DNA of 64,000 nucleotides, taken from assembly GCF_037811135.1 (NCBI RefSeq), contig NZ_CP149130.1, positions 3,220,501 through 3,284,500 of the forward strand, written 5' to 3'. Of the stretch, positions 3,081 through 51,456 are shown in pieces; the first letter of the stretch is position 1, and each line of letters begins with the position of its first letter. The notes beneath the pieces are model-generated. The model made no database searches. It was not told where the DNA came from and saw nothing but the letters and a program-made list of their open reading frames with translations. A program made the position numbers and the translations under genes. Source of the stretch: Aeromonas rivipollensis (GTDB lineage Bacteria > Pseudomonadota > Gammaproteobacteria > Enterobacterales > Aeromonadaceae).

Positions 3081-3314
3081 CCCAGCTATGACGATGCGGA
3101 GCTGGTGGTGGTCAACACCTGCGGCTTCATCGACAGCGCGGTACAGGAGCCGCTGGAAGCCATCGACGAGGCCCTGGCCGAGGCCAAGCGCCTGAAAGAG
3201 GCTGGCGTGAAGGAGATCCTGGTCATCTCCCAGGACACCTCCGCCTACGGCGTGGACGAGGTCCGCATCGACGAGGCGGACGAGTACGATCTGTGGGCCA
3301 GCCTGATCAAGTAA
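3081..3314 (+). pseudogene. Mosaic rimO remnant (three joined segments)
   Basis: This stretch is built from three pieces of rimO joined in frame. The first corresponds to parent bases around 882-980, the second to about 1290-1370, the third to about 2036-2091. The result stays open and ends in TAA at 3312-3314. Most differences from the parent are synonymous third-position changes. The clear amino-acid changes are S to P, G to D and G to K at the last codon. It lacks the radical-SAM cysteines and an ATG with a ribosome-binding site, so it is not a functional methylthiotransferase. A copy of the rimO-type terminator follows it. Confidence 0.85.
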
Positions 3315-3339
3315 TCCGCTAACGGATGTGGCGCCCGAA

Positions 3340-3369
3340 GCCAGTCAGTGAATGCTGACTGGCTTTTTT
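3340..3369 (+). terminator. Copy of the rimO terminator
   Basis: The same 9-bp stem as after rimO (3340-3348 with 3355-3363) with a slightly different loop, followed by T6. It was probably duplicated together with the rimO fragment. Confidence 0.8.
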
Positions 3370-3871
3370 ATTGCCCCAAATCAGCCAACACGAAAACCCT
3401 TGGCAGCCGGCGCCGGCTCCTTGCGCAAATAGGACGCCCCCCATCATCACCCGACTCAGCGGGATATGCCCCTTAGTGAGCCAGCGCACAGTTCTGCCCC
3501 GCCCCCCGGTTCGCTTGTTTCAAGCTCAAAATAAAGCCACTTAAGGGGAGCAAAAACGAGCACGATCCACTTCACACTATCGTCTTTGAATTGTCATAAA
3601 AGGTGACTTGGTACTTTGTGAGAATTAATGCAAGCGTATAATTTAAAAGGATTAAAAATAGAGTTTGACGATAATGACGAGAGAGTCCGAGTTTTTACGA
3701 TATCGACGAAATGAAGAGTTGTTGTTTTCCTGTTAACTCTGCTTTTCTAAGGGCGTTGGATGACACAACTACAAGGGTGCAAAACCTGACCAACATTGAG
3801 GGCCGGCATCCAAGCATGGGATCCGGTGCTCCATTCCAAAACCATGGAAGACCAATAAGAAAGGAAAAAAT
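3370..3871 (+). promoter_or_regulatory. Upstream region of the chitin operon, with a candidate -10 box
   Basis: About 500 bases without a gene. From 3580 onward it is distinctly AT-rich compared with its surroundings. A consensus TATAAT lies at 3637-3642, with only a weak -35 match (CTTTGT near 3614). This would leave a leader of roughly 220 bases before the binding-protein gene. AAGGAAAAA just before 3872 serves as ribosome-binding site. No operator could be assigned. Confidence 0.35.
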
Positions 3872-5554
3872 ATGCTTGCCAAAGTATCCAAAATCGCTAC
3901 CTCAGTCATGCTGGGAACCCTGATGCTAGGTGCCGCCGGCACCGCCATGGCCGCCGAGAACAAGACGGTGCTGACCCTGGTCGCGCAACAGGAGACCGCA
4001 TGGGTCAAGAACTTCAACCCCTTCCTGCAGGCCGGTCTGCTGCACACCACCCGTCACTTCATCTACGAGCCGCTGGTGATCTTCAACGATATGCAGGGTG
4101 GCAAACCCGTCTATCGTCTGGCCACCCACTACGCCTTCAGCGATGACCTGAAGTCGGTCACCTTTGACCTGCGCGAAGGGGTCAAGTGGTCCGATGGTGA
4201 AGCCTTCACCGCCGACGACATCCTCTTCTCCTTCAACCTGGTCAAGGCCAACAAGGCGCTGGACGAGCGCTCCATCTGGACTCAGATCAAGGGTGTCGAG
4301 AAGCTGGGTGAGCACAAGGTCAAATTCGACCTGGCCGAGGTCAACACCAACGTGGTGAACGACCTGGTGCTGGTGCCCATAGTCCCCGAGCATCAGTGGA
4401 AGTCGGTAAAAGACCCGGTTGCCTTCACCAACGACAAGCCGGTCGGCACAGGTCCCTTCACCGAAGTGGACAACTTCTCCGCCCAGCTCTATACCCAGTG
4501 CCGCAACCCGCACTACTGGGACAACGCCAACCTCGCCATCGACTGCCTGCGCATGCCGCAGATGGCCACCAACGACCAGGTACTGGCTGCTGTGATGAAG
4601 GGTGACGTGGACTGGTTCGGCTCCTTCGTGCCGGACATCGAGCGCCTCTACGTCGGCAACGATCCCAAGAACAACAAGTACTGGTTCCCCGCCTCCGGCA
4701 CTGTGGCGTTCAACGTCAACTTCCAGAGCAAGAACCCGGGCAATAACGAAGCCTTCAACGACATCAACTTCCGCCGCGCCTTCTCCATGGCGATGGACCG
4801 CCAGTCCATGGTGGACATCGCGGGCTACGGTTACCCGACCGTCAACGAATACCCCTCAGGTCTGGGCAAGGCATTCGCCTCCTGGGACAACCCGGACGTC
4901 GAGAAGAAATACGGCAAGTACAACAAGTTCGACCTGGAAGGTGCCAAGGCTCTGCTGAAGGAAGCGGGCTACAAGGACTGTGACGGCGACAAGTTCCTCG
5001 ACACCCCGAGCTGCAAGAAGATCGAGTTCAAGGTGCTGGTACCGAACGGCTGGACCGACTGGGTCAACACAGTCCAGATCGGTGTGGAAGGGCTGCAGGC
5101 CCTGGGTCTGAACGCCAAGACCTCCACCCCGGAAGCCACCGTCTGGACCGAGAACCTGATCACAGGTGACTTCGACGTCGCCCTGCAGGGGTACTTTGCC
5201 GGTGCCAACCCGCACAAGTACTTCGAGACCGCCTTCCACTCCCGCAACATGGGTGAGCGCGGCAACCGCTTCGCGGCGCCCCGTTACAAGGATCCCGAGC
5301 TCGACAAGCTGATCGATGACTTCACCCAGACCGCCGATGCGGCCAAGCAGAAGGAGATCATGTTTGCCATCCAGGAACGCGTCGGTGCCAACCAGACCAT
5401 CATCCCGGTGTTCAACAACCCGACCTGGTACGAATACAGCACCAAGCGCTTCAATGGCTGGTTCAGTGCCGACAACCCGGTCGCCAAGCCGCAGGTACAC
5501 CCGGACACCCCGGAGCGTCTGCTGCACGTGTTGTCACTCAAGCCAAACAGCTAA
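3872..5554 (+). CDS. Chitooligosaccharide-binding periplasmic protein of an ABC transporter
   Basis: A 560-residue solute-binding protein of the SBP_bac_5 (DppA/OppA-like) family. It has a clear signal peptide with an AMA cleavage site near residue 27. Family length and its place at the head of a block containing DppB/C/D/F-like components, a GH9 enzyme, a glucosamine kinase and a GH20 hexosaminidase match the Vibrio chitin oligosaccharide binding protein locus. The inferred role is to capture chitin oligosaccharides in the periplasm, and in Vibrio to take part in chitin sensing. A terminator directly after the gene should make it more abundant than the membrane components. Ligand assignment is from context, since peptide binders belong to the same family. 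Confidence 0.88.
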   Translation: MLAKVSKIATSVMLGTLMLGAAGTAMAAENKTVLTLVAQQETAWVKNFNPFLQAGLLHTTRHFIYEPLVIFNDMQGGKPVYRLATHYAFSDDLKSVTFDLREGVKWSDGEAFTADDILFSFNLVKANKALDERSIWTQIKGVEKLGEHKVKFDLAEVNTNVVNDLVLVPIVPEHQWKSVKDPVAFTNDKPVGTGPFTEVDNFSAQLYTQCRNPHYWDNANLAIDCLRMPQMATNDQVLAAVMKGDVDWFGSFVPDIERLYVGNDPKNNKYWFPASGTVAFNVNFQSKNPGNNEAFNDINFRRAFSMAMDRQSMVDIAGYGYPTVNEYPSGLGKAFASWDNPDVEKKYGKYNKFDLEGAKALLKEAGYKDCDGDKFLDTPSCKKIEFKVLVPNGWTDWVNTVQIGVEGLQALGLNAKTSTPEATVWTENLITGDFDVALQGYFAGANPHKYFETAFHSRNMGERGNRFAAPRYKDPELDKLIDDFTQTADAAKQKEIMFAIQERVGANQTIIPVFNNPTWYEYSTKRFNGWFSADNPVAKPQVHPDTPERLLHVLSLKPNS

Positions 5555-5561
5555 TCACCTC

Positions 5562-5584
5562 GGCCCCCTGCGGGGGGCCTTTTT
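5562..5584 (+). terminator. Intra-operon terminator after the binding-protein gene
   Basis: GGCCCCC pairs with GGGGGCC around a short loop, followed by T5. It lies between the binding protein and the first permease and would let only part of transcription read on, a common way to set binding protein above permease levels. Confidence 0.8.
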
Positions 5585-5671
5585 CCCCGCCATGTCTTCC
5601 ATCCCCCGTCTTTGCCGGGGTTGGGGGAGCTTTGCCCGGCGCGGGGCAGGCTTGCAGTAAAAGGTATCACC

Positions 5672-6655: not shown

Positions 6656-6656
6656 G

Positions 6657-9690: not shown

Positions 9691-11406
9691 ATGGAACTCT
9701 TGATCAATCAGGTGGGTTACGATTGTGACGGACACAAGATTGCCCTGCTGCAGACCGCCGCCGACGTGGAAATAAGCGGCCTGGTGCGACTGCGCCGCCT
9801 GCATGATGACCGCCTCCTGCTGGAGGTTCCTCTCCAGGCCGCAGGCCAGGTGCCCGGCTGGCAGGGACGTGCCTACTGGCGTGCCGACTTCAGCGCCTTC
9901 AAGGAGTCCGGCCACTACCGGCTGGAGGCGATCACCGCACAAGGCATAGTCCGCTCCACCCGCTTCGCCATAGGTCAGGATCTGCTGATCGGCCGCTGCC
10001 TCTCCGATGTCATTCACTACTTCAAGGGCCAGCGTGCCAGCGGCGCCTTCGATAGAGCCGACCGCAGCGCCCGACTGTTTGGCACCGACCAGCGCAAGGA
10101 TGTGCACGGCGGCTGGTTCGATGCCAGCGGCGACATGAGCAAATACCTGAGCCACCTCTCCTACGCCAACTACCTCAACCCCCAGCAGACCCCCCTGGTG
10201 GTATGGAGCCTGCTCAAGAGCCGGGCGCTCCTGGCGACGCGCCGCGACATCGACGGGCTGAACCTCTGCAAGCGGCTCAGTGACGAGGGGCTGCACGGGG
10301 CGGATTTTCTCTGCCGGATGCAAGATGAGAGCGGCTTCTTCTACATGACGCTGTTCGACAAGTGGAGCAAGGATCCCGAGCAGCGCGAGCTGTGCGCCTA
10401 CGCCACCCAGCAGGGGCTCAAGTCAGCCAACTGGCAGGCGGGTTTCCGGCAAGGGGGCGGCATGGCCATCGCCGCCCTGGCCCGGGCCGCCCGCGAGCAG
10501 ACCGGCGGCGACTTCGATACCAGCCACTATGCCGAGGCGGCCAGGCGCGGCTACCTGCACCTGCGCGAGCACAACCTCGCCTATCTGGACGACGGTCGCG
10601 AGAACATCATCGACGACTATTGCGCCCTGCTGGCGGCGGTCGAGCTGACCCAGACCCTTGGCCGCGACTGGCTCGGGGAGGCAAGGGAGAGGGCCGGCAG
10701 GCTCTGCGCCCGCCAGCGCCCCCACCCCGAGCTCGGCCACTACTGGAGTGCCAACGACGACGGCTCGCGTCCCTACTACCACGCCGCCGAGGCGGGTCTG
10801 CCGGTGCTGGCCCTGCTGGAATACCTGGGGGTCGAGCCGGATCAGGATCGCCGCGCCCGGGTGAATGCCGTGGTGCAGCAGGCGCTGGCCGCCGAGCTGG
10901 CCCTCGCCGCCCGGGCGGGCAACCCCTTCGCCCTGGCACGCCAATATGTGAAGGGGGTGGACGAAGACCCCCGCATCAGCTTCTTTATGCCCCACCACAA
11001 CGAGTCCGGTTACTGGTGGCAGGGGGAGAACGCCCGGCTGGCCTCCCTGGCCGCCATGGCCTTCGCTGCGGCCCGCCACTTCCCCCAGCAGAGCCCACTC
11101 CTGATGACGTTCGGCCAGCGCCAGCTCGACTGGATCCTCGGGCAAAACCCCTTCAACGCCTGCATGCTGGCGGGGCACGGCATCAACAACCCGAGCTACA
11201 CCGCCGGTTATCCCAATGCCCTCGGCGGCATCTGCAACGGCATCACCGCCGGGTTCGATGACGAGGCTGAGGTCGCCTTCATTCCCGAGGAGTACAGGGA
11301 TCGGCTGGATCAGAACTGGCGCTGGGGGGAGCAGTGGATCCCCCACGCCGCCTGGTTCGCCCTGGCCATCAGTTGGCAGAGTGCGCCGGAGGCTCGTCAT
11401 GATTGA
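9691..11406 (+). CDS. GH9 family glycosidase, probable exo-beta-D-glucosaminidase
   Basis: A 571-residue glycoside hydrolase family 9 protein with an N-terminal Ig-like (CelD_N) domain to about residue 95 and an (alpha/alpha)6 catalytic domain. The catalytic-base motif DASGD sits at residues 144-148, and the acid region near the C-terminus reads NESGYWWQGEN. No signal peptide is seen, so it acts in the cytoplasm. In the equivalent Vibrionaceae locus this gene was long called endoglucanase-related; a Photobacterium GH9 homologue is known to be an exo-beta-glucosaminidase. The placement beside a glucosamine kinase fits release of glucosamine from partly deacetylated chitooligosaccharides. Its last ~110 bases gave rise to the 122-bp repeat array that follows. 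Confidence 0.88.
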   Translation: MELLINQVGYDCDGHKIALLQTAADVEISGLVRLRRLHDDRLLLEVPLQAAGQVPGWQGRAYWRADFSAFKESGHYRLEAITAQGIVRSTRFAIGQDLLIGRCLSDVIHYFKGQRASGAFDRADRSARLFGTDQRKDVHGGWFDASGDMSKYLSHLSYANYLNPQQTPLVVWSLLKSRALLATRRDIDGLNLCKRLSDEGLHGADFLCRMQDESGFFYMTLFDKWSKDPEQRELCAYATQQGLKSANWQAGFRQGGGMAIAALARAAREQTGGDFDTSHYAEAARRGYLHLREHNLAYLDDGRENIIDDYCALLAAVELTQTLGRDWLGEARERAGRLCARQRPHPELGHYWSANDDGSRPYYHAAEAGLPVLALLEYLGVEPDQDRRARVNAVVQQALAAELALAARAGNPFALARQYVKGVDEDPRISFFMPHHNESGYWWQGENARLASLAAMAFAAARHFPQQSPLLMTFGQRQLDWILGQNPFNACMLAGHGINNPSYTAGYPNALGGICNGITAGFDDEAEVAFIPEEYRDRLDQNWRWGEQWIPHAAWFALAISWQSAPEARHD

Positions 11407-11764
11407 GACGTACAAGGATCGGCTCGGACATCATTGGCGCAGGAGAGAGCAGTGGATCCTCCAATCATTCAGCCTGGTTTGCCCTGGCCATCAGCTGGCA
11501 GAGTGCGCCGGAGGCTCGTCATGATTGAGACGCACAAGGATCGGCTCGGACATCATTGGCGCAGGAAAGAGCCGTGGATCCTCCAATCATTCAGCCTGGT
11601 TCGCCCTGGCCATCAGCTGGCAGAGTACGCCGGAGGCTCGTCATGATTGAGACGTACAAGGATCGGCTCGGACATCATTGGCGCAGGAGAGAGCCGTGGA
11701 TCCTCCAATCATTCAGCCTGGTTGGCCCTGGCCATCAGCTGGCAGAGTGCGCCGGAGGCTCGTC
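11399..11764 (+). repeat. Three tandem 122-bp repeats at the GH9/gspK junction
   Basis: Copies occupy 11399-11520, 11521-11642 and 11643-11764. Each begins with ATGATTGAG, the start of gspK, and continues with a diverged copy of the GH9 gene's last ~110 bases. Each encodes a 41-codon micro-ORF that starts with MIE and ends GGSS. Each stop overlaps the next start as ATGA, the last one overlapping the gspK start. Relative to GH9 the first ~18 codons keep frame, then a small insertion shifts it. Differences between copies (Y/H, R/K, Q/P, C/R/G, C/Y) all change the amino acid, so protein-level conservation is not supported here. Confidence 0.95.
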
Positions 11765-12637
11765 ATGATTGAGTACTGGGTCGGGGTCGATGGCGGAGGG
11801 ACCCACACCCGCGCCCGCATTCGGGACAAGGGGGGCAGAGTGCTGGGAGAGGGGCGCGCCGCGGGCTCCAATCTGGAGCTCGGCATTGCGCTCGCCCACG
11901 CCAATGTGCTGGCGGCCATCGAGCAGGCCCGCCTTGAGGCAGGGCTCCCCCGGGAGAGTAAGCAGCAAATGGGGGTGGGGCTGGCGCTGGCCTCCGCCGA
12001 GCTGCCCGACTGCTACCAGGCCCTGCTCGAGATGCCCTTCCCCTTTGCCAGCGTGCGGCTCACCTCCGACGCCTTCGGCGCCTGCCTGGGCGCCTTTGGT
12101 GGTCGGGAGGGGGCCATCCTCATCGCCGGCACAGGGTCAGCCGGGCTCATCTACCGCCATGGCCAGCTCCATAGCTGCTCAGGGCGAGGCTTTCCCATCT
12201 CGGATCTCGGCAGCGGTGCCTGGCTGGGGCTGCGCGCCATCCAGCAATCCCTGCTCTGCCACGACGGTATCCTGCCCCCCAGCCTGCTCGCCGTGCGCCT
12301 GCTCGATCATTTCAAGCGGGATCAGGCGGAGGTGGTGCGCTGGGCTGCCCGCGCCATTCCCGCCGACTATGGCCGCTTCGCCCCCTGGGTGTTCGACGCC
12401 GCCAGCGACGGGGATGAGCTCGCCAACCAGCTGCTGGACGAAACCTGCGCCCAGTTGCAGACCCTGCTGGAGGGCATGGGGCAGCTGGGAGCCGACCGCA
12501 TCGCCCTGCTTGGCGGCGTCGGCATGCGCCTGGCCCCTCGCCTGGGACACCTCAACCTGGTTCCCCCGCAAGCCGATGCGCTGGAAGGCGCCATCCTGTT
12601 TGCCCAGTCGGAGGCCTACCCATGCCTGCATCCTTAA
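11765..12637 (+). CDS. gspK: Glucosamine kinase GspK (BadF/BadG/BcrA/BcrD family)
   Basis: A 290-residue ATP-dependent sugar kinase. The N-terminal phosphate-binding motif VGVDGGGTHTRA and the second ATPase motif around LIAGTGSAG are typical of the BadF/BcrA group, whose Vibrio member in the chitin locus is a glucosamine-specific kinase. The product would phosphorylate glucosamine released by the GH9 enzyme; activity on GlcNAc cannot be excluded. The ATG at 11765 is coupled to the last repeat micro-ORF by an ATGA overlap. A longer frame starting 29 codons upstream runs through repeat sequence and is rejected. Its 3' end was itself copied into the following junction. Confidence 0.9.
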   Translation: MIEYWVGVDGGGTHTRARIRDKGGRVLGEGRAAGSNLELGIALAHANVLAAIEQARLEAGLPRESKQQMGVGLALASAELPDCYQALLEMPFPFASVRLTSDAFGACLGAFGGREGAILIAGTGSAGLIYRHGQLHSCSGRGFPISDLGSGAWLGLRAIQQSLLCHDGILPPSLLAVRLLDHFKRDQAEVVRWAARAIPADYGRFAPWVFDAASDGDELANQLLDETCAQLQTLLEGMGQLGADRIALLGGVGMRLAPRLGHLNLVPPQADALEGAILFAQSEAYPCLHP

Positions 12638-12803
12638 GCCCTGCCCGGCGTGAACGATACGCTGGAGAGGGCACAGCCCCGTTTGCCCAGCCGGAGGACT
12701 ACCCATGCCTGCATCCCTTAGCACTGTCCACGCCGAGCCACCTGCGCGAGAGGACCCCATCTTGTTCACCCCATCAGAGGAATACCCATGTCTGCACCCC
12801 TGA
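12622..12803 (+). repeat. Duplicated gspK/GH20 junction sequence
   Basis: The end of gspK (from about 12572 to 12637) contains an out-of-frame ATG at 12622 that resembles the GH20 gene start. This stretch recurs at about 12655-12720 and again, shorter, at about 12762-12803. Each copy repeats the text coding SEAYPCLHP and the embedded CCCATG(C/T)CTGCA. In the first copy the stop has been lost by a one-base change in spacing; in the last it is kept. Confidence 0.85.
12705..12803 (+). CDS. 32-residue micro-ORF bridging gspK and the GH20 gene
   Basis: It starts MPASLS, like a diverged GH20 start (MSAPLI), and ends EEYPCLHP plus stop, like the GspK C-terminus. Its stop overlaps the GH20 start by 16 bases. 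This is the same distance by which the gspK stop overlaps the upstream ATG at 12622. The geometry suggests a duplicated coupled junction. There is no independent evidence of a stable product. Confidence 0.3.
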   Translation: MPASLSTVHAEPPAREDPILFTPSEEYPCLHP

Positions 12804-14653
12804 TCCATACCCAGATCGACCGTCGCGACGGTGAAGACGTCTGGTTCCGCTTCACCCTGAGCCAGCTCCCGGCCAGCCCTTGGAAGCTGCACTTCTGCCT
12901 GGCCCGTCAAATCGATCCCCAGTCGGTGGAAGGGGGATCCCTGGCACGCCAGAGCGGCAGCTACAAGGTGCTGGTGCCTCATGAGGGAGTCAGCGAGCTG
13001 CGTTTTTGCTGCCGCAACACCCCCATCAAGCGCTACTCCGACCTGCCCCAAGGCTTCTTCCTCAGCCTGACGGACGAAGGTGCCCAGCCGCTGCTGCAAC
13101 CCCTGGTGCAGGCGGGCCTGGATCTCGGCCTGCCGCCGAGTCCGGCGGCGGCCCCCGATCTGCCCGAGGTGGAGCCCGCCAACGGCATAGTGCCCCAGCC
13201 GACTCAGCTGCGACTGCCGGAAGGCAACTTCCGCCTGGCCGAGCGGGCCCATGTCAGCGGCCCTGTCTCCCTCGCCCCCCTGCTGGCCCATTTCAACGAG
13301 CTGACGGGGCTCGCCCTGACCCAGGATCACGACGCCGAGATCCACCTGGTCGAGGCACAGCTCCCCCAGGAGGCTTACCAGCTCGTCATCACCACAGAGG
13401 AGATCCGCATCCGGGCTGCCGGCGAGGCTGGCTGGCGCCACGGTCTGGTGACCCTGGCCCAGTGGGTCCTGCAACACGGGGAGAGCCTGCCCTGCCTCGA
13501 GGTGGAGGATGCGCCCAGGTTCGGTTTTCGCGGCATCTTCCTCGACTGCGCCCGCCACTTCCACTCCATCGCCACCCTCAAGCGCCTGCTCAAGCAGATG
13601 AGCCTCTACAAGTTCAACCGCTTCCACTGGCACCTGACCGATGACGAAGGCTGGCGCCTCGAGATCAAGGCCTTCCCCCGGCTGACCGAAGTGGCGGCCT
13701 GGCGGGGACATGGCCTGGCGGTGGGCCCCCAGCTCAGCGGCGGCCCCGAACCTTATGGCGGCTACTACACCCAGAGCGAGGTGCGCGAACTGGTGGCCTA
13801 TGCCGCTGGGCTCGGCATCACCATCATCCCGGAGATAGACATCCCGGGTCACTGCCACGCGGCCATCAAGGCGCTGCCCGAGCTGCTGCGGGAAGAGGCG
13901 GACAGCTCCCGCTACCTCTCGGTGCAATATTTTGACGACAACGTGCTCAACCCGGCCCTACCCGGTACCTATCGCTTCCTGGAGGCGGTGATCGACGAGG
14001 TGTGCGCGCTCTTCCCCGGCACTCAGGTGCACATGGGGGGGGACGAGGTGCCGACCGGGGTCTGGACCGACAGCCCCGCCTGTCAGCAGTTGATGGCAGA
14101 GCAGGGTTACTCCGATTGCCGGGAGCTGCAGGGCCACCTGCTGCGCCACTGCCAGCAATACCTGGCGGCCAGGGGCAAGCAGATGCTGGGCTGGGAAGAG
14201 ATACTGCACGGGGACAAGGTGAGCCGGGACGCCACCATCTTCGCCTGGACCAGCTTCCAGGCGGGGCTGGATGCCGCCTCCGCGGGCTACCCCGTGGTGA
14301 TGGCCCCGGCCCAGTCCCTCTATCTGGATCTCGCCTGGAGCCCGGACATCCATGAACCCGGGCTCTACTGGGCGGGGACCCTCAATCTGGAGCAGGTCTA
14401 CCGATGTGACCCTGCGCCGGCCGATTTCCATGCCAACGATAACATCCTGGGGGTGCTGAGCCCCTTGTGGTCGGAACTGATCACCTCTCGCGATCGTCTC
14501 GACTACATGTTGTTCCCGCGCATGCTGGCCACGGCCGAGGTAGCCTGGAGCGACCCCGCCCGCAAGGCCTGGGATCACTTCGCTGCCCGCCTGCCCGGCC
14601 AGCTGCAGATCCTCGATCAGTTGCAGGTGCGTTACCGGGTACCACAGAGGTAG
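12788..14653 (+). CDS. Beta-N-acetylhexosaminidase, GH20
   Basis: A 621-residue family 20 hexosaminidase. It has an N-terminal beta-sandwich region, a GH20b-type alpha/beta domain (about 150-250) and the catalytic barrel. The catalytic pair D419-E420 lies in HMGGDEVP. The substrate-pocket tryptophans and HWHLTDDEGWR are present. No signal peptide is seen, so it would act in the cytoplasm on imported chitobiose and longer oligomers, releasing GlcNAc. It ends the operon. The start at 12788 follows AGAGG and overlaps a repeat-derived micro-ORF. Unlike the Vibrio locus, no chitobiose phosphorylase or phosphoglucomutase gene follows. Confidence 0.95.
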   Translation: MSAPLIHTQIDRRDGEDVWFRFTLSQLPASPWKLHFCLARQIDPQSVEGGSLARQSGSYKVLVPHEGVSELRFCCRNTPIKRYSDLPQGFFLSLTDEGAQPLLQPLVQAGLDLGLPPSPAAAPDLPEVEPANGIVPQPTQLRLPEGNFRLAERAHVSGPVSLAPLLAHFNELTGLALTQDHDAEIHLVEAQLPQEAYQLVITTEEIRIRAAGEAGWRHGLVTLAQWVLQHGESLPCLEVEDAPRFGFRGIFLDCARHFHSIATLKRLLKQMSLYKFNRFHWHLTDDEGWRLEIKAFPRLTEVAAWRGHGLAVGPQLSGGPEPYGGYYTQSEVRELVAYAAGLGITIIPEIDIPGHCHAAIKALPELLREEADSSRYLSVQYFDDNVLNPALPGTYRFLEAVIDEVCALFPGTQVHMGGDEVPTGVWTDSPACQQLMAEQGYSDCRELQGHLLRHCQQYLAARGKQMLGWEEILHGDKVSRDATIFAWTSFQAGLDAASAGYPVVMAPAQSLYLDLAWSPDIHEPGLYWAGTLNLEQVYRCDPAPADFHANDNILGVLSPLWSELITSRDRLDYMLFPRMLATAEVAWSDPARKAWDHFAARLPGQLQILDQLQVRYRVPQR

Positions 14654-25911: not shown

Positions 25912-27054
25912 ATGTTTGATTTTGATCGGGAGATAGATCGCAGCGGCACCATGAGCCTGAAGTGGGACAAGTACAAGGGTCAGGATGTACTGCCCATGTG
26001 GGTAGCCGACACCGACTTCGCCTCGCCTCCCGCCGTCATCGAGGCCCTCACCGCGCGGGTGGCCCACGGCATCTTCGGCTATTCCCGCCCCTCCCCCCGG
26101 CTGATCGAACTCATCATCACCCGTCTGCAGCAGCGCTATGGCTGGACCATATCCCCGGAGTGGCTGGTCTTCCTGCCGGGGGTGGTGCCCGGTCTGAACC
26201 TCGCCTGCAAGGCCTGGAGCCAGCACGGCCGTGGCATCATCACCCCCAAGCCGGTCTATTACCCCTTCCTGCAGGCGCCTGGCTTCAACGATCGCCCCCT
26301 GCTGACCGTCCCCATGATGGAGGAGGCCGGGCGCTGGGTGCTGGATCTGGAGGAGCTGGAGCGCCAGGCCCCCTCCGCAGACCTGCTGCTGCTGTGCAAC
26401 CCGCAGAATCCGGGGGGCACCGTCTTCACTCGCGAGGAGCTGCTCGCCATCGACGCCATCGCCGAGCGCCACAACCTGGTTGTCTGCTCGGATGAGATCC
26501 ACTGCGATCTGCTGCTGGACAAGGATGCCCGCCACATTCCCTACGGCGCCCTGAGCCCGTCGGCCGCCGAGCGCTCTGCCGTCATGATGGCGCCGAGCAA
26601 GACCTTCAACATCGCCGGCCTGTGCTGCTCCTTCGCCGTGATCCCCAACGCCCGCCTGCGGCTCAAGCTGCAACAGGCGATGCGCGGCATCAGCGCCGAC
26701 GTCAACCTGCTGGGCTTCGTCGCCGCCGAGGCGGCCTACGAGAGCGGCGAGCAGTGGCTCAGTGAACAGCTCGACTATCTGAGGGCCAACCTGACCCTGA
26801 TCGAGCAGGCTGTGTCCCGCTGGCCCGGCGTCAAGCTGGCAAGGAATCAGGCGACCTATCTCGCCTGGATCGATGTGAGCGCCCTCGGGCTGGATGATCC
26901 CGTCGCCTTCTTCGAGCAGGCGGGGGTCGGTCTCTCCCCGGGCGCCCAGTTTGGCAATGGCCAGTTCGTGCGCCTCAACTTTGGCTGCACCAGGGCTCGT
27001 CTCACCCAAGCCTTGTCGCGCATGGAAAAGGCCATTCTCCAGCGCACCGCCTGA
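25912..27054 (+). CDS. malY: MalY/PatB family PLP-dependent cystathionine beta-lyase
   Basis: A 380-residue fold-type I PLP enzyme of the MalY/PatB subgroup. The PLP lysine lies in APSKTFNIAG near residue 227. The aspartate that pairs with the pyridine nitrogen is in SDEIHCDL, and PQNPGGTVF precedes it. These enzymes cleave C-S bonds in cystathionine and related thioethers. E. coli MalY additionally represses MalT, which cannot be inferred here. The start at 25912 overlaps no other gene and begins FDFDREIDRSGTMSLKWDKY, matching family N-termini. The last 78 bases are copied immediately downstream. Confidence 0.92.
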   Translation: MFDFDREIDRSGTMSLKWDKYKGQDVLPMWVADTDFASPPAVIEALTARVAHGIFGYSRPSPRLIELIITRLQQRYGWTISPEWLVFLPGVVPGLNLACKAWSQHGRGIITPKPVYYPFLQAPGFNDRPLLTVPMMEEAGRWVLDLEELERQAPSADLLLLCNPQNPGGTVFTREELLAIDAIAERHNLVVCSDEIHCDLLLDKDARHIPYGALSPSAAERSAVMMAPSKTFNIAGLCCSFAVIPNARLRLKLQQAMRGISADVNLLGFVAAEAAYESGEQWLSEQLDYLRANLTLIEQAVSRWPGVKLARNQATYLAWIDVSALGLDDPVAFFEQAGVGLSPGAQFGNGQFVRLNFGCTRARLTQALSRMEKAILQRTA

Positions 27055-27071
27055 CAAGGAACGCGCGCTCC

Positions 27072-27149
27072 AACGCTGGCTGCACCAGGGCTCGCCTCAC
27101 CCAAGCCTTGGCGCGCATGGAGAAGGCCATTCTCCAGCGCCGCGCCTGA
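27072..27149 (+). pseudogene. Tandem copy of the malY 3' end
   Basis: A 78-base copy of the last 26 codons of malY including TGA, offset by 95 bases and without indels. Differences are F to A, S to A, T to R and two synonymous changes. The frame and stop are kept, but there is no start codon in front. A shorter, degenerate third copy may follow at 27172-27203, where MVKAIQVHI plus stop resembles MEKAILQRTA plus stop. Confidence 0.85.
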
Positions 27150-27193
27150 CAAGGTCCCACCCCCTTGACGGGAATGGTGAAAGCCATTCAGGT

Positions 27194-38009: not shown

Positions 38010-38054
38010 GGCTCGCCCCACTTGGCGGTAATGAACAGAGAACAAGGAGAGGCC

Positions 38055-38274
38055 ATGAGCGAGCGCTATATCGGATTGATGTCGGGTACCAGAGCTTGGC
38101 ATGGGATAGATGCCGTGCCCTCCTCCACTCCTTGGTCAGGTTTCTCGTCACAGAAGGGCATGTCATGAGCGAGCGCTATATCGGATTGATGTCGGGTACC
38201 AGAGCCTGGCATGGGATAGATGCCGCGCCCTCCTCCACTCCTTGGTCAGGTTTCTCGTCACAGAAGGGCATGTC
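38055..38274 (+). repeat. Two tandem 110-bp copies of the anmK 5' end
   Basis: The copies occupy 38055-38164 and 38165-38274 and run straight into the true anmK start. Each encodes a 37-residue micro-ORF that begins with AnmK's own first residues MSERYIGLMSGT. It then diverges to AWHGIDAV or AWHGIDAA and ends GFSSQKGMS. The stop of each overlaps the next start as ATGA, so ribosomes could pass from one to the next and then into anmK. The catalytic MDG of AnmK is altered in both copies. The copies differ by one synonymous and one V/A change. Confidence 0.95.
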
Positions 38275-39384
38275 ATGAGCGAGCGCTATATCGGATTGAT
38301 GTCGGGTACCAGCATGGATGGGATCGATGCCGTGCTGGTCACTATGGATGGTGAAACCCTTCGGGTAGAGGATGCCCTCTGCCATCCCTGGCCAGAGGCA
38401 ACGGCGCACGAGCTCCACGCCCTCTGCACCCCGGGGGAGAACGAGATAGACCGCATGGGGGTAGCCGACAATCGAGTGGCGCAGGAATTTGCTGCCGCCA
38501 CCCTGGCGCTGCTTGCCAAGGCAGGGCTTGAACCCAAGGATATCCGCGCCATCGGCTCCCACGGCCAGACAGTGCGCCACCGCCCCCAGCTCGGCTTTAC
38601 CCTGCAAATAGGCAATGCGGCCCTGCTGGCTGCCCTCACGGGTATCGATGTGATTGCCGATTTTCGCACCCTGGACATGGCCCTCGGCGGTCAGGGGGCG
38701 CCTCTGGTGCCCGCCTTCCATCAGGCGATTTTTGCCAGACCCCATGCCCTTCGGGTGGTGCTGAACCTCGGCGGCATCGCCAATATCTCTGTGTTGCCGG
38801 GCCACGCCGAGGGCGTCTATGGCTTCGATACCGGCCCCGCCAACACCCTGCTCGATGGCTGGTATCGCCGCCATTACCCCCAGGGCGGCAGCTACGACGC
38901 CGGTGGCCAATGGGCGGCCAGCGGCCAGCTTGTTCCGGCGCTGCTCGAAAAACTGCTGGCTCACCCCTACTTCGCCGCCCCCTATCCTAAGAGCACGGGG
39001 CGGGAGATGTTCACCCTGGAGTGGCTAGACCACGAGCTGGCAGGCACGGCATACGCCCCGGTGGATGTGCAGCGCACCCTGCAGGCGCTCAGCTGCCACA
39101 GCATAGCCCGCCAGCTGCCTGCGGTGGATGAGGCACAAACCAGGCCCGAGCTCTTCGTCTGCGGTGGCGGCGCCCACAACGGCCCCCTGCTGGCGGAGCT
39201 CGCCGCCCTGCTGCCCCGCTGGCGCCTTGAAAGCACGGCGGCACTGGGGCTCGCCCCCGACTGGGTGGAAGGAACGGCCTTTGCCTGGCTGGCACAGCGC
39301 TTTATGACGCGCCAGCCCGGCAACCTGCCCGCCGTCACCGGCGCCAGCCGACCGGCCGTACTGGGTGCCCTCTATCCCGCCTGA
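38275..39384 (+). CDS. anmK: Anhydro-N-acetylmuramic acid kinase
   Basis: A 369-residue enzyme that hydrates and phosphorylates 1,6-anhydro-MurNAc to MurNAc-6-phosphate in peptidoglycan recycling. The ATP-binding motif GTSMDGIDAVL lies at the N-terminus and GSHGQTVRH near residue 100. GGIANIS and FDTGPANTLLDGW follow. Length equals that of E. coli AnmK when started at 38275. Two longer frames extend upstream, but they run through the tandem copies of the gene's own start. The last codons recur downstream at 39425-39502. Confidence 0.95.
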   Translation: MSERYIGLMSGTSMDGIDAVLVTMDGETLRVEDALCHPWPEATAHELHALCTPGENEIDRMGVADNRVAQEFAAATLALLAKAGLEPKDIRAIGSHGQTVRHRPQLGFTLQIGNAALLAALTGIDVIADFRTLDMALGGQGAPLVPAFHQAIFARPHALRVVLNLGGIANISVLPGHAEGVYGFDTGPANTLLDGWYRRHYPQGGSYDAGGQWAASGQLVPALLEKLLAHPYFAAPYPKSTGREMFTLEWLDHELAGTAYAPVDVQRTLQALSCHSIARQLPAVDEAQTRPELFVCGGGAHNGPLLAELAALLPRWRLESTAALGLAPDWVEGTAFAWLAQRFMTRQPGNLPAVTGASRPAVLGALYPA

Positions 39385-39424
39385 GGGAGCCAGCTAATCG
39401 ATTTTCACCCCGGGCCCGTCCATC

Positions 39425-39502
39425 AAGCCGGGCAACCAGCCCTCCCATTCTGACACCGGCGCCAGCCGACCGGCGGTACTGGGCGCCGTCTATCCCGCCT
39501 GA
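39425..39502 (+). pseudogene. Copy of the anmK 3' end
   Basis: About 26 codons resembling the AnmK C-terminus, with the same frame and stop. It reads KPGNQP, a short changed stretch, then TGASRPAVLGAVYPA plus TGA. The parent has QPGNLPAV then TGASRPAVLGALYPA. No start codon precedes it. Confidence 0.8.
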
Positions 39503-39599
39503 GCGCCTGAGTACCAGCGCCATTAACCCCTGAGCAATCACGTGCTCAAACAGATGCCGCCCAAAGGCGGCATTTGTGCATTGGGGTGGAAAAGGCCGG

Positions 39600-41334: not shown

Positions 41335-42600
41335 ATGAGTGGCACCATCATCAAGGCTGCAAGAAATACCCCCCATGCCCCCCAGGATCTGGGCCCCTAC
41401 ACCCAGAGCGTGGCCTTCTCCCACTACAACAATATTGCCGCCCAGCTGCCGGTCGATCCCAGGACAGGCAAGCTGGTGAGTGGCGATATCCAGGCGCAGG
41501 CCAGACAGTGCCTGACCAATATCCAGGCCATCGTCGAGAGCATCGGCCACGTCATGGACGACATGGTGAAAGTCACCCTCTTCCTCAAGAACATGGGGGA
41601 TCTGGAGGCGGTCAACGCCGTCTATCGCGAATTCTTCCCCCGCAACCTGCCGACCCGTACCGTGCTGGCGGTGGCCGGTCTGCCGCTCGGCGCCGCCATT
41701 CAGATGGACGCCCTGCTCTCCAACGGGGAAGGCACCTTCCCGCAAGCCCCCTGCCCCCTTATCAAGCTCGCCCGAAACAGCTGCCGGGCACCGGCCGATC
41801 CCCTCTCGAACCATACGGTGGCCTTCTCCCACTACAACAATATCGGCGCCCAGTTGCCGGTGGATGCCACCACCGGCCAGCTGGTTGCCGGTGGCATCCA
41901 GGAGCAGGCAGCCCAGTGCCTGCGCAATATCAAAAACGTGCTGGAGAGCATAGATGTGCCCTTTGACGATATCGTCAAGGTGACTGTCTACCTGACCAGC
42001 CTCGCGGATCTGGAGGCCGTCAACGAGGTTTACACAACTTTCTTCCCGGACTCCGCCATCGCCCGCGCCGTCGCCTATCTGCCAGCCCGCAGCCTGATCG
42101 TGGCCTCTGCCCTGCCGCTCGGTGCCCGGGTGCAGATGGATGCGGTCATCTCCCACGGTGACGGCACCCCGCCCCAGCTGGTGGAAGACAGGCACAACCT
42201 GGTGATCCGCGCCCGTAACACCGACAAGGCACCACGCAGCCCGCTCCATTGCCAGAGCGTCGCCTTCTCCCACTACAACCATATCGCCAGCCAGCTGCCG
42301 ATCGACATGGCCACCGGCAAGGTGCTGACCGGCTGTATCCGTGAGCAGACCGCCCAGTGCCTCGGCCATATCAAGACCATCGTGGAGAGCATCGGCCATG
42401 TGATGGACGATATCGTCAAGGTCAATATCCAGGTGAAGAACATCGCGGATCTGGCGGACGTGGATGCCATCTACACCAAATACTTCCCGGCCTATCTGCC
42501 CACCCGCACCGTTATCGGCGTGAGCGATCTGCCCGCCGGCGCCCTGGTGCAGATGGATGCCGTGATGTCCAATGCGGAAAGTACCCCGCCGCAGGCATAA
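41335..42600 (+). CDS. Triple RidA-domain fusion protein
   Basis: A 421-residue protein made of three consecutive RidA/YjgF/UK114 domains, at about residues 1-140, 141-285 and 286-421. Each has SVAFSHYN (or TVAFSHYN), QLPVD (QLPID in the third), DD(I/M)VKV and a C-terminal strand with LPTRT or LPARS. The arginine that binds the substrate carboxylate in RidA is therefore kept in all three. RidA proteins work as trimers that hydrolyse reactive enamines and imines from PLP enzymes, so the fusion could form a single-chain trimer. The glutamate of the usual IEIEA motif reads as aspartate (QMDA). No partner gene adjoins it. Confidence 0.92.
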   Translation: MSGTIIKAARNTPHAPQDLGPYTQSVAFSHYNNIAAQLPVDPRTGKLVSGDIQAQARQCLTNIQAIVESIGHVMDDMVKVTLFLKNMGDLEAVNAVYREFFPRNLPTRTVLAVAGLPLGAAIQMDALLSNGEGTFPQAPCPLIKLARNSCRAPADPLSNHTVAFSHYNNIGAQLPVDATTGQLVAGGIQEQAAQCLRNIKNVLESIDVPFDDIVKVTVYLTSLADLEAVNEVYTTFFPDSAIARAVAYLPARSLIVASALPLGARVQMDAVISHGDGTPPQLVEDRHNLVIRARNTDKAPRSPLHCQSVAFSHYNHIASQLPIDMATGKVLTGCIREQTAQCLGHIKTIVESIGHVMDDIVKVNIQVKNIADLADVDAIYTKYFPAYLPTRTVIGVSDLPAGALVQMDAVMSNAESTPPQA

Positions 42601-48002: not shown

Positions 48003-48701
48003 ATGTTTCGCTCTCTGTTCACCCTCAGTGTCGGCCTGCTCATCAGCCTGCCGTTCATCAGCTCGCCCCTGCAGGCCCAGACCTTTCGCGCCGCCAAGCA
48101 GGATCTGAACAAGCTCTATCAGAGCCACCCCACCACCTTCTATTGCGGCTGCAACATCAAGTTCAGCGGCAAGCAGATGGCCCCCGACTGGGAGAGCTGC
48201 GGCTACCTGCCGCGCAAGCAGGCCAATCGCGCCTCTCGCATCGAGTGGGAGCACGTGGTCCCCGCCTGGGAGTTCGGCCACCAGCTCCAGTGCTGGCAAG
48301 AGGGCGGGCGCAAGAACTGCGGCAAGAGCGACGAGTTCAACAAGATGGAGGGGGACATGCACAACCTCTTCCCCGCCATCGGCGAGGTCAACGGCGATAG
48401 GGCCAACTACCGCTTCTCCGACTGGAACGGCAAGCCGAACCAGTACGGCAAGTGCCAGATGCTGGTGGACTTCAAGGATCGCCGGGTACAGCCGCCCAAG
48501 GGGCCGGTACGCGGCCAGATAGCCCGCGCCTACCTTTACATGGGCCAGCAGTATGGGCTGCGCCTGGCCGCCCAACAGCGTAAACTGTTCGAGGCTTGGG
48601 ACAGGCAGTACCCGGCCGACCGCTGGGAGTGCGAGCGCAACAGCCGCATCGGCAAACTGCAGGGCAACACCAACCCCTTTATTGAAAAGCAGTGCCGATA
48701 A
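48003..48701 (+). CDS. endA: Periplasmic/secreted endonuclease I
   Basis: A 232-residue EndA/Dns nuclease with a signal peptide to about residue 25 (SPLQAQTF). The catalytic region reads RIEWEHVVPAWEFGHQ near 80, and NKMEGDMHNLFPAIGEVNGDRANY follows (in two short blocks), both diagnostic. Multiple cysteines suggest disulfides. In Vibrio and Aeromonas such nucleases are periplasmic or secreted and degrade DNA during natural transformation and biofilm turnover. AAGGAT precedes the ATG at 48003. It is followed 63 bases later by rsmE. Confidence 0.95.
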   Translation: MFRSLFTLSVGLLISLPFISSPLQAQTFRAAKQDLNKLYQSHPTTFYCGCNIKFSGKQMAPDWESCGYLPRKQANRASRIEWEHVVPAWEFGHQLQCWQEGGRKNCGKSDEFNKMEGDMHNLFPAIGEVNGDRANYRFSDWNGKPNQYGKCQMLVDFKDRRVQPPKGPVRGQIARAYLYMGQQYGLRLAAQQRKLFEAWDRQYPADRWECERNSRIGKLQGNTNPFIEKQCR

Positions 48702-48764
48702 CCCCATCTATGGGCACAAGGGATTTAAAATCCCTCTTCTTGAACCAGAGACTGACACTGAGCC

Positions 48765-49496
48765 ATGCGCATTCCACGTATCTATGAACCGGCCGCCCTG
48801 CAGGTGGGCCAGACTCTCGCCCTGTCGGAAGACGGTGCCAACCACATCGGCCGGGTGCTGCGCATGCAGCCGGGTCAGCAGCTCGAGCTGTTCAACGGCG
48901 ACGGCAACCAATATGCCGCCACCATCACCGGCGTCGGCAAGAAGTCGGTGGACGTGACCATCGACAGCTGCGAGGCCCGCTCGGTGGAGTCCCCCTTCGC
49001 CATCCATCTGGGCCAGGTGATCAGCCGTGGCGACAAGATGGATTTCACCATCCAGAAATCCGTCGAGCTGGGTGTCACCTGCATCACGCCGCTCTTCTCC
49101 GAGCGCTGCGGCGTCAAGCTGCCCGCCGACAGGCTGGAGAAGAAACGCGAGCAGTGGCAGAAGGTGGTGATCAGCGCCTGCGAGCAGTGCGGCCGCAATG
49201 TGGTGCCCGAAGTTCGCATGCCGATGGAGCTCGATGCCTGGCTGGCCGAAGAGACCCAAGAGCTCAAGCTCAACCTGCACCCGCGCGCCCCCTACAGCAT
49301 CAACACACTGCCGGTGCCGGAACACGGGGTGCGCCTGCTGATCGGCCCGGAAGGGGGCTTGTCGAGCGACGAGATCGCCCGTACCGTGCAAGAAGATTTC
49401 AAAGAGATGCTGCTGGGGCCGCGGGTGCTGCGCACCGAAACCGCCGCCCTGACCGCCATTACCGCGCTGCAGTGCCGCTTTGGCGATCTGGCCTGA
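48765..49496 (+). CDS. rsmE: 16S rRNA (uracil1498-N3)-methyltransferase
   Basis: A 243-residue SPOUT-class methyltransferase. An N-terminal PUA-like domain is followed by the knotted SAM-binding domain with [14 protein letters not shown] near 190 and [15 protein letters not shown] near 218, both family signatures. It methylates U1498 of 16S rRNA. The upstream sequence has a weak ribosome-binding site. It lies in the conserved endA-rsmE-gshB-yqgE-ruvX order. Confidence 0.96.
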
Positions 49497-49547
49497 AACA
49501 GGTTTTAAGAATCTCACTCGCAATCGAGCCACAAGAAGGAAACTCGG

Positions 49548-50498
49548 ATGACCATTAAACTCGGCATAGTGATGGACCCGATTTCGGCCATCAATATCAA
49601 GAAAGATTCCAGCTTTGCCATGCTTGAAGAGGCGCAAAAGCGCGGCTATGAGCTCTTCTATCTGGAGATGTCGGATCTCTACATGGAAGCCGGTCGCGCC
49701 TTTGGCACCATGCGCCCGCTGACCGTCAAATATGACTATGCCGACTGGTTCAACCTGGGCGAGGTGATCGATCAGCCCCTCTCCACCCTGGATGTGATCC
49801 TGATGCGCAAGGATCCGCCGTTCGACACCGAATTTATCTACGCCACCTACATGCTGGAGCGAGCCGAGGATGAGGGCTGCCTCATCGTCAACAAGCCCCA
49901 GAGCCTGCGCGACGCCAACGAGAAGCTCTACACCGCCTGGTTTGCCGAGCATACCCCGACCACCCTTGTCACTCGCAGAGCCGATAAGCTGCGCGCCTTC
50001 CACGCCAAACACAAAGACGTGATCCTGAAGCCCTTGGACGGCATGGGCGGCGCCTCCATCTTCCGCATGAAGGAGGATGACGCCAACGTGGGGGTCATCA
50101 TCGAAACCCTCACCGCCCACGGCAGCCAGTACTGCATGGCACAGACCTTCCTGCCCGCCATCAAGGACGGCGACAAGCGGGTGCTGGTGGTGGACGGCGA
50201 GCCCGTGCCCTACTGCCTGGCCCGCATTCCGGCCCAGGGAGAGACCCGTGGCAACCTGGCGGCCGGCGGCCGCGGCGAGGCGCGTCCCTTGAGCGAGGCC
50301 GACTGGGCCATCGCCCGTGCGGTGGGCCCTACCCTGAAAGAGAAGGGGCTGATCTTCGTCGGGCTCGACATCATAGGCGATCGGCTGACCGAGATTAACG
50401 TCACCAGCCCGACCTGCATCCGCGAGATCGAGGCGGCCTTCCCGGTGCATATCACCGGCATGCTGATGGATGCCATCGAACGCCGGCTGGGAAAATAA
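49548..50498 (+). CDS. gshB: Glutathione synthetase
   Basis: A 316-residue prokaryotic GshB with ATP-grasp fold that adds glycine to gamma-glutamylcysteine. It begins KLGIVMDPISAINIKKDSS, and the ATP-binding and glycine-rich loops DGMGGASIFR and GETRGNLAAGGRG are exact. INVTSPTCIREIE closes the active site. AGAAGGAAA precedes the ATG. It has an inverted repeat after its stop but lies in a block that is otherwise cotranscribed. Confidence 0.97.
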   Translation: MTIKLGIVMDPISAINIKKDSSFAMLEEAQKRGYELFYLEMSDLYMEAGRAFGTMRPLTVKYDYADWFNLGEVIDQPLSTLDVILMRKDPPFDTEFIYATYMLERAEDEGCLIVNKPQSLRDANEKLYTAWFAEHTPTTLVTRRADKLRAFHAKHKDVILKPLDGMGGASIFRMKEDDANVGVIIETLTAHGSQYCMAQTFLPAIKDGDKRVLVVDGEPVPYCLARIPAQGETRGNLAAGGRGEARPLSEADWAIARAVGPTLKEKGLIFVGLDIIGDRLTEINVTSPTCIREIEAAFPVHITGMLMDAIERRLGK

Positions 50499-50546
50499 CC
50501 CCAGGAGACGCCCCCTCGAGGCCGTCACCCAGGCAGTGACACCACA

Positions 50547-50572
50547 GGGGCCAGCGCGGCCCCTGCTCTTTT
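50547..50572 (+). terminator. Probable terminator after gshB
   Basis: GGGGCC pairs with GGCCCC around AGCGC, followed by TGCTCTTTT. The T-run is imperfect. Confidence 0.55.
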
Positions 50573-50693
50573 CTGTTGCGCGACGATGTGAGCCAGCCCC
50601 CGGACTTCCGGCTTTTCTGCGCGAAAAAGCGGTTTTGCCCGCCGCCGTCAACTGCCATAATCACCCCAAATACCTTTGCACTCTTTGATATCT

Positions 50694-51248
50694 ATGCAAA
50701 CACTGCAAAACCATTTTCTGCTCGCCATGCCGAGCCTCACGGACCTCTACTTCGAACGCTCCCTGGTCTATCTGTGCGAGCACAGCAGCGAGGGAGCCAT
50801 GGGACTGGTGGTCAACATCCCGGTGGACATGTCCCTGGACGCCATGCTGACCAAGCTCAAGCTGAGCCCCCCTGCCACCGCCGAGATGAAACAGCCGGTG
50901 CTGCAAGGCGGCCCGGTCCATGCTGATCGCGGCTTCGTGCTGCACAGCTTCAGGCCCGGCTTCAACTCCACCCTGCAGGTGAGCGACGAGATGATGGTCA
51001 CTACCTCCAAGGACATCCTCGAAACCCTGGGCACCGCCGAGGCGCCGGACCACTGGCTGGTGGCGCTGGGTTACGCCGGCTGGAGTGCAGGGCAGCTCGA
51101 GCAGGAGCTGGTGGATGGCGCCTGGCTGGTGATCCCCCCCAACCCCAGGCTGGTGTTTGACACCCCCATTCATCAGCGCTGGCAGCAGGCCGCCGCCAGC
51201 ATCGGCGTCAATCCCCTGCATCTCTCCAGCCAGGTGGGACATAGCTGA
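50694..51248 (+). CDS. yqgE: YqgE/AlgH family protein
   Basis: A 184-residue DUF179 protein. It shows LAMPSLTDLYFERSLVYLCEH, GAMGLVVN and the later LVALGYAGWSAGQLE, all diagnostic. Biochemical function is unresolved; the name AlgH comes from an effect on alginate in Pseudomonas. In E. coli it is followed directly by ruvX (yqgF). Here 452 bases intervene, made of two copies of the gene's own 3' end and a REP-like pair. The stop TGA shares its A with the start of the first copy. Confidence 0.94.
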   Translation: MQTLQNHFLLAMPSLTDLYFERSLVYLCEHSSEGAMGLVVNIPVDMSLDAMLTKLKLSPPATAEMKQPVLQGGPVHADRGFVLHSFRPGFNSTLQVSDEMMVTTSKDILETLGTAEAPDHWLVALGYAGWSAGQLEQELVDGAWLVIPPNPRLVFDTPIHQRWQQAAASIGVNPLHLSSQVGHS

Positions 51249-51352
51249 TGGTGTTTGACACGCACATTCACCAGCGCTGGCAGCAGGCCATTGTCGTCAT
51301 CAGCATCGGCGTCAACCCTCTGCATCTCTCCAGTCAGGTGGGGCACAGCTGA
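51248..51352 (+). CDS. 34-residue micro-ORF, first copy of the yqgE 3' end
   Basis: It begins MVFDTHIHQRWQQA and ends NPLHLSSQVGHS, and copies the last 32 residues of YqgE. The parent's P is changed to H and an insertion replaces AA with IVVI. The ATG is formed at the duplication joint and overlaps the yqgE stop as TGATG, so re-initiation is plausible. It has no separate ribosome-binding site beyond sequence inside yqgE. It is listed as a possible translated micro-ORF rather than an established gene. Confidence 0.4.
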   Translation: MVFDTHIHQRWQQAIVVISIGVNPLHLSSQVGHS

Positions 51353-51456
51353 TGGTGTTTGATACGCACATTCACCAGCGCTGGCAGCAGGCCATTGTCG
51401 TCATCAGCATCGGCGTCAATCCCCTACACCTCTCCAGCCAGGTGGGGCACAGTTAG
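51352..51456 (+). CDS. 34-residue micro-ORF, second copy of the yqgE 3' end
   Basis: It encodes exactly the same 34 residues as the first copy, although seven codons differ (D, N, P, L, H and two S). The stop changes from TGA to TAG. It overlaps the first copy's stop as TGATG. At some codons it matches yqgE where the first copy does not, and vice versa, so gene conversion may contribute. Confidence 0.4.
   Translation: MVFDTHIHQRWQQAIVVISIGVNPLHLSSQVGHS

Follow-up and report, generated by a model that had tools for sequence, protein, structure and literature searches.

Why should the ends and starts of ordinary genes be repeated immediately beside the genes themselves? This question is raised by a 64,000-nt stretch of DNA (the window; positions 3,220,501-3,284,500 of the 4.55 Mb single-contig genome of Aeromonas rivipollensis, our own strain, G000), in which short copies of gene termini lie near the parent gene at seven sites: rimO, GH9/gspK, gspK/GH20, malY, the start of anmK, the end of anmK, and yqgE. 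The initial annotation treated the seven as instances of one phenomenon. We found that six of them are tandem arrays, that the one at rimO is a remnant of another kind, and that arrays of the first kind are far commoner in Aeromonas than in the other bacteria sampled. On balance, we believe that the arrays probably arise by recurrent tandem duplication of about 100 bp at gene ends and are reshaped by unequal recombination into small hypervariable arrays.

Tandem copies of gene ends in the window

All seven sites are present in the window sequence, close to where the initial annotation had placed them, and its description of six as tandem or nearly so also stands. At each of these six, a gene end or start is copied with a period that lies between 81 and 122 bp. 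Head-to-tail direct repeats were confirmed by self-BLAST at six window sites and by Tandem Repeats Finder at four. The units are as follows (ORF, open reading frame).

11287-11403, plus strand: parent unit, 3' end of the GH9 gene (Pfam Glyco_hydro_9)
11405-11526, plus strand: GH9/gspK copy 1, 122 bp, a 41-codon ORF with an ATGA joint
11527-11648, plus strand: GH9/gspK copy 2, 122 bp
11649-11770, plus strand: GH9/gspK copy 3, which leads into the kinase-like gene (start at 11765)
12584-12832, plus strand: gspK 3' end and GH20 start, three periods of an 83-bp unit (self-BLAST)
26967-27059, plus strand: parent unit, 3' end of the malY-like gene (Pfam Aminotran_1_2)
27062-27154, plus strand: malY 3'-end copy
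38044-38153, plus strand: anmK start copy 1, 110 bp, a 37-codon ORF with an ATGA joint
38154-38263, plus strand: anmK start copy 2, 110 bp, absent in genome G023
38275-39384, plus strand: anmK, the parent gene (Pfam AnmK)
39426-39503, plus strand: anmK 3'-end copy (parent 39314-39385), absent in G023
51151-51248, plus strand: parent unit, 3' end of yqgE (Pfam DUF179, AlgH-like)
51249-51352, plus strand: yqgE copy 1, a 34-codon ORF with a TGATG joint
51353-51452, plus strand: yqgE copy 2, absent in G023

The unit had been described at three junctions as the end of the upstream gene plus the start of the downstream gene. This is correct for GH9/gspK and gspK/GH20, but not for anmK, where the unit begins 35 nt past the stop of the upstream gene. 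The ATGA and TGATG overlaps reported earlier are present at GH9/gspK, anmK and yqgE. Slippage at microhomology, one of the mechanisms that the initial annotation proposed, finds support at one joint, where by eye GAGTAC at 11290 and 11771 brackets the GH9/gspK unit, as expected from slippage between short repeats.

Copy number differs between related strains. G023 is one other genome listed for the species of our strain, and the two differ at 6 of 8 comparable arrays, with flanks that are 94-98% identical (88% in one case). The span between equivalent flanks at GH9/gspK is 482 nt in our strain and 238 nt in G023; the gspK junctions were compared between these two members of the species only. 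The malY array is longer in G023, and malY arrays also occur in G012, G002 and G018. The window, which was picked for its arrays, is denser than the genome sample described below (6 arrays against 1.5 expected, Poisson p=0.005).

Array density in Aeromonas and in control genomes

The survey ran on sampled stretches of genomes. From our own genome we took 40 evenly spaced 20-kb stretches (800 kb, or 864 kb with the window), and from other Aeromonas sixty 20-kb stretches (1.2 Mb), including ten G023 stretches that are contiguous, lie on the anmK-carrying contig and overlap the orthologous region of the window. The control sample of 1.83 Mb consisted of 1.58 Mb of non-Aeromonas sequence, mostly around anmK, and 250 kb of Escherichia coli K-12. 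Arrays were found by self-BLAST at offsets of 40-500, with a minimum length of 45 nt, a minimum identity of 70% and a maximum E of 1e-3; the counts leave out arrays over at least two tRNAs and those that fall within a single ORF of at least 150 amino acids.

We found 19 arrays in our own genome and 25 in the other Aeromonas, which makes 44 in 2.0 Mb, or 38 in 1.8 Mb once the contiguous G023 stretches are set aside; 2 of the 44 are orthologous to window arrays. The controls yielded 11 arrays in 1.83 Mb, 9 of them in the non-Aeromonas sequence and 2 in E. coli K-12. Controls with at least 57% G+C contained 4 arrays in 568 kb. The suggestion of a lineage-wide process at gene boundaries is supported, with a density well above that of the sampled controls and arrays seen across the genus. 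Extrapolated to the whole genome, our strain would carry about 108 arrays (65-169). One third-order Markov simulation of 864 kb of our own sequence produced no arrays, in agreement with the earlier claim that the copies exceed chance. The highest density in the other-Aeromonas sample was 5 arrays in 100 kb (G032), and an earlier 400-kb sample of other Aeromonas held 3 arrays outside ORFs, of which 1 was left after the tRNA-array filter.

Arrays inside ORFs, excluded from these counts, numbered 10 in 800 kb of our own sequence and 24 over all period-analysed sets; in 16 of these 24 the period is a multiple of three. Among the 25 arrays of our own genome (window included), the longest unit is about 200 bp, occurs in almost four copies and adjoins a gene end (L181:10904-11658). 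Both E. coli K-12 arrays (L352:8581-8818 and L356:25805-26387) are intergenic, with a period of 100-101 bp and 96-98% identity, and intergenic arrays with a period of 141-146 bp are found in the distant gammaproteobacterium G052 (L213 and L215).

Placement of the arrays

A gene end is included in 43 of the 44 Aeromonas sampled-stretch arrays, compared with 1 of the 11 control arrays; one control array is intragenic. Thirty-one of the 44 contain a 3' end only, 4 a 5' end only, 8 both, and 1 no gene end. The larger set of 58 arrays takes in all Aeromonas sets, including the window and anmK-centred loci, and represents 44 distinct loci. Here, 56 contain a gene end (36 3'-only, 10 5'-only, 10 both), and 11 sit between convergent genes. 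Gene ends were classed with a codon-scored gene caller, a cruder ORF calling having been dropped because antisense ORFs misled it; for the two E. coli K-12 arrays, placement was read from the annotation. Copies start a median of 11 nt past the parent's stop, with a maximum of 107 (43 alignments). Periods lie within 58-133 bp in 54 of the 58 arrays, and a scan for shorter units found few below about 60 bp. Because E. coli also has arrays of 100-101 bp, we do not claim that a size near 100 bp is special. Among arrays with at least 88% identity, 1 of 18 was classed as intergenic, namely a malY array cut by a locus edge. Of the two intergenic calls in Aeromonas, one (L045, 206-543) groups with the malY array.

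Recurrence at equivalent genes

By DNA search, 19 of 37 genomes carry repeats of the last 100 or so nucleotides of recG, three of them in part only (G002, G005, G010). These copies number one to three, with a stop-to-stop distance of mostly 112-113 bp (117 bp in our strain), and several genomes without full copies retain, by eye, a remnant of about 28 nt past the stop. A protein search of 61 family genomes, which is less sensitive than the DNA search, found partial recG copies in 10 of 23 Aeromonas and in 0 of 38 other-genus genomes among the matches listed (to about E=2e-6). In a per-gene table of 30 genomes, extra copies were scored in 11 genomes for the anmK start, 5 for the anmK end, 5 for malY, 3 for yqgE and 20 for recG, counted as BLAST pieces, so that copies may be split (our own malY scores 2 for one copy) or missed. 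For instance, a diverged anmK start copy is seen in the alignment of the Aeromonas tecta locus and is uncounted in the table.

Two gene ends carry arrays of different period in two species each: 64 and 113 bp in one case (L244:15827-15996, L277:1012-1199), 96 and 167 bp in the other (L267:14447-14630, L280:11131-11358). Differing periods at shared gene ends suggest repeated formation or strong remodelling.

Evolution of the copies

The recG copies of different species have a common, copy-specific 5' piece. In this 5' block, mean identity is 0.780 to the own parent and 0.784 to other species' copies, the own parent being closer in 12 of 25, whereas in the 3' 70 nt the means are 0.877 and 0.809 and the own parent is closer in 20 of 25. 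By eye, malY, yqgE and the anmK start display a comparable mix of copy-specific and parent-like parts. The single recG copy of our own strain is 90% identical to G015 and 87% to its own parent.

The mismatch between parent and copy is 0.104, 0.108 and 0.185 at codon positions 1, 2 and 3 (43 pairs). This is the pattern to be expected when a copy drifts freely next to a gene under constraint. In the 58 arrays the periods fall evenly into the three phases (20, 20 and 18), and in 14 of 29 copies bearing insertions or deletions (indels) the net length change is divisible by three (p=0.07). The recG copies conserve neither start codons nor frame, most being shifted by +1 relative to the parent (by eye). 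The copies appear to be non-coding by-products, for which no function is needed or indicated.

We also considered coding mini-proteins and rejected them on the period phases, the codon pattern and the frames of the recG copies.

The rimO remnant

The site at rimO is a different case and involves two features.

763-2091, plus strand: rimO, parent of the remnant, an ORF with Pfam Radical_SAM, TRAM_2 and UPF0004
3077-3345, plus strand: deleted copy of rimO with its own terminator, not tandem, matching pieces of rimO

The remnant sits about 1 kb downstream of rimO, and its pieces match rimO 876-980, 1271-1369 and 2030-2084 at 97, 92 and 89%, respectively. Over its final 93 nt, terminator included, the remnant matches the end of the G023 rimO at 96%, whereas the resident rimO matches the remnant's end over 55 nt only, at 89%. 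In G023, all three listed matches to the remnant fall within rimO, and G019 carries an equivalent remnant (98/97% identity). Because the remnant's end is nearer to the rimO of G023 than to the resident gene, we infer an allele exchange in which an old gene end would have been left behind. Remnants of allele replacement, another option in the initial annotation, would thus account for this site. In the interval between rimO and the remnant (2254-3066), Pfam identifies a GNAT acetyltransferase gene; another part of it looks, by eye, like a piece of a helicase gene.

Strand bias and motifs

The GC skew of the genome switches sign at about position 0 and again at about 2.25 Mb, which we took as origin and terminus. 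Of 39 arrays, 26 lie at lagging-strand genes, compared with a baseline of 47.8% (p=0.024, exploratory and uncorrected for relatedness); of the 44 sampled arrays, four were set aside for ambiguous skew and one because it includes no gene end. In the window and the anmK-centred loci all 13 of 13 arrays are at lagging-strand genes, these being few distinct loci. This weak head-on excess hints at replication-transcription conflict. In a head-on gene the fork reaches the 3' end first, which fits the 3' bias. One review describes indels generated near the sites of head-on collisions (PMC7451550), another treats the role of such conflicts as contested (PMC10710837), and the title of a third paper denies replication-transcription conflicts a significant part in replication-error mutations in E. 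coli (PMC8510543). By GC skew, the parents of all six tandem arrays of the window are on the lagging strand, that is, transcribed against replication.

No joint motif is shared between arrays (the best 6-mer had p=5e-4 before correction over many words), no consistent RNA fold appeared in ten units (z from -2.06 to +1.89), and Rfam gave 0 matches in the window.

Discussion

We propose that the arrays arise and change in several steps. A segment of about 60-130 bp across a stop codon, or sometimes across a start or operon joint, would be duplicated in tandem, probably through misaligned replication between short direct repeats. As the parent gene is left intact, the copy may survive and drift as non-coding DNA; the drift can be seen in the codon positions, and its cause is our suggestion. 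Unequal recombination and gene conversion among parent and copies would then alter copy number, and this could explain why part of each copy often stays matched to the parent, whereas elsewhere in the copy a sequence peculiar to copies is retained from species to species. Exchange of alleles between species is also probable. Finally, duplication or survival may be favoured at 3' ends, perhaps where forks and transcription meet head-on, which is the most weakly supported step.

Several observations weigh against this model. Random duplication followed by survival is not enough to account for the 3'-end bias. When units of equal sizes are placed at random in this genome, with positions wholly inside a gene excluded, 35% are predicted to be intergenic, 28% 5'-only, 25% 3'-only and 12% both, and rerunning this null with a tolerance and gene-length limit matching the observed classes did not change the result. 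The 25 arrays of our own genome comprise 0 intergenic, 3 5'-only, 15 3'-only and 7 both (0, 2, 12 and 5 without the window's six). The stop codon also lies late in the unit, at a median of 0.78 compared with 0.52 for random placement (Kolmogorov-Smirnov p=5e-5). Plain survival is therefore insufficient; quicker decay of intergenic copies could conceal some arrays, but even among the 18 arrays with at least 88% identity a single one was classed as intergenic, the malY array cut by a locus edge. Concerted evolution is a tendency only, as 5 of the 25 recG copies are not nearer their own parent. The head-on excess is modest, being one test among several on arrays that are partly dependent. Density is uneven, with 0 arrays in 260 kb (G011, G016 and G035 together) and 1 in 120 kb (G015), and self-similar pairs also occur at larger offsets: outside single ORFs, our own sample has 38 pairs at 40-499 bp and a further 18 at 500-3000 bp. 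Finally, arrays at one gene in half of the genus could reflect repeated formation, selection or long persistence.

The initial annotation had considered maintained translational-coupling or leader devices, in which mini-ORFs hand ribosomes on through the ATGA and TGATG joints. These joints, the intact ORFs of 34-41 codons at GH9/gspK, anmK and yqgE, and the retained multiples of three would suit such devices. However, the period phases are even, the mismatches resemble those of non-coding DNA, most recG copies are out of frame and have no conserved start, most arrays involve 3' ends, 11 of 58 sit between convergent genes, and G023 does without anmK and yqgE copies although it belongs to the same species. 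Because the codon-position patterns fit a non-coding copy, coupling is not supported as a general rule, and we consider it quite improbable. Scars of allele replacement with foreign DNA, with homology on one side and microhomology on the other, are unlikely to explain the tandem arrays, although the terminator end of the rimO remnant, with its closer match to G023 than the resident gene offers, is what such an event would leave. By eye, the upstream flank of anmK is also G023-like, and the tail of its copies is like a copy tail in G025. Against this, the 3' blocks of recG copies are nearer their own parent in 20 of 25 cases, although the copy in our own strain is slightly nearer G015; the copies are tandem and often multiple; and the codon pattern is unlike that of a whole functional foreign gene.

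A dedicated Aeromonas process at gene 3' ends, be it fork-transcription conflict or a putative enzyme that copies about 100 bp, would explain the 3'-end bias, the near absence of intergenic arrays, the tight sizes, the enrichment over controls and the head-on excess. It is nevertheless rather doubtful: the head-on effect is weak, joints share no motif, the 100-101 bp period also occurs in intergenic arrays of E. coli, several Aeromonas samples contain few arrays or none, and the title of PMC8510543 denies conflicts a significant part in E. coli replication errors. Assembly error or chance similarity deserves practically no credence. We found no point in its support, the simulation gave 0 arrays, and, since neighbouring units diverge by about 4-33% and arrays recur at equivalent genes across separate assemblies, assembly error is unlikely in general. 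Recurrent duplication reshaped by recombination remains our preferred reading. Only tentatively would we extend it to an Aeromonas-specific process that keeps making tandem 3'-end copies of about 100 bp, mostly at head-on genes, so that some 100 gene ends per genome behave as fast minisatellites recombining with the adjoining genes.

The arrays resemble several known systems. Bacterial minisatellites, or variable-number tandem repeats, are direct repeats in tandem, with units of tens to about 100 bp, and strains differ in how many copies they carry. The Aeromonas arrays are likewise tandem, head-to-tail and strain-variable, but their unit is the adjoining gene's own end, placed just past the stop; by extrapolation there would be 65-169 such sites per genome. 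Close direct repeats, reportedly described by Achaz and colleagues in 2002, are said to be made by slippage between short repeats; tandem duplication bounded by short repeats, with later divergence, is common to both, whereas gene-end placement, genus-wide recurrence at equivalent genes and partial concerted evolution set the Aeromonas arrays apart. Silent partial gene cassettes, such as pilS and orphan contact-dependent inhibition tips, are partial copies that lie downstream of a parent and recombine. The Aeromonas copies share this position and probably this recombination, but their parents are housekeeping genes, and we saw no sign of variation reaching the parent protein. The indels described near head-on collision sites in PMC7451550 would be comparable if the arrays arise at such sites; those, however, are said mostly to destroy the gene, whereas the Aeromonas gene is intact and the link is a modest strand bias.

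Other classes fit less well. For the two arrays tested, we did not find the dispersal of REP, BIME or ERIC repeats, as GH9/gspK had 1 match in our own genome and the recG unit matched its own locus only. At the window sites read, units abut without the unique spacers of a CRISPR array (no CRISPR finder was run), and in the 43 alignments the start of the copies just past the stop is not that of an integrative-element attachment duplication (at rimO, with its interval of about 1 kb, no mobile element was sought). Neither the ten folded units nor the Rfam search of the window indicated a structured RNA element, and the conserved start, frame and coding constraint of a translationally coupled leader ORF were not seen in the period phases, the codon pattern or the recG copies. 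The titles and abstract openings that we searched, a coverage that leaves out most subscription papers, contained no description of such gene-end arrays. Tandem duplication, copy-number variation and conversion are known ingredients; their placement at gene ends and their recurrence would be the new features.

If our reading is correct, everyday genes of one genus, among them recG, anmK and yqgE, have rapidly changing repeats at their ends, about 100 in all. Such repeats would show where in nature short duplications form and persist, could serve as markers for strain typing, and would be a trap for gene annotation through spurious mini-ORFs and misplaced starts. They would also offer a testable case of replication-transcription conflict leaving a lasting mark at gene ends.

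Other repeats in the window

A single ORF at 41335-42600 contains three tandem RidA/YjgF-like domains (Pfam Ribonuc_L-PSP), a triple fusion that accounts for the self-repeat families D2, D3, D5 and D7 of the window.

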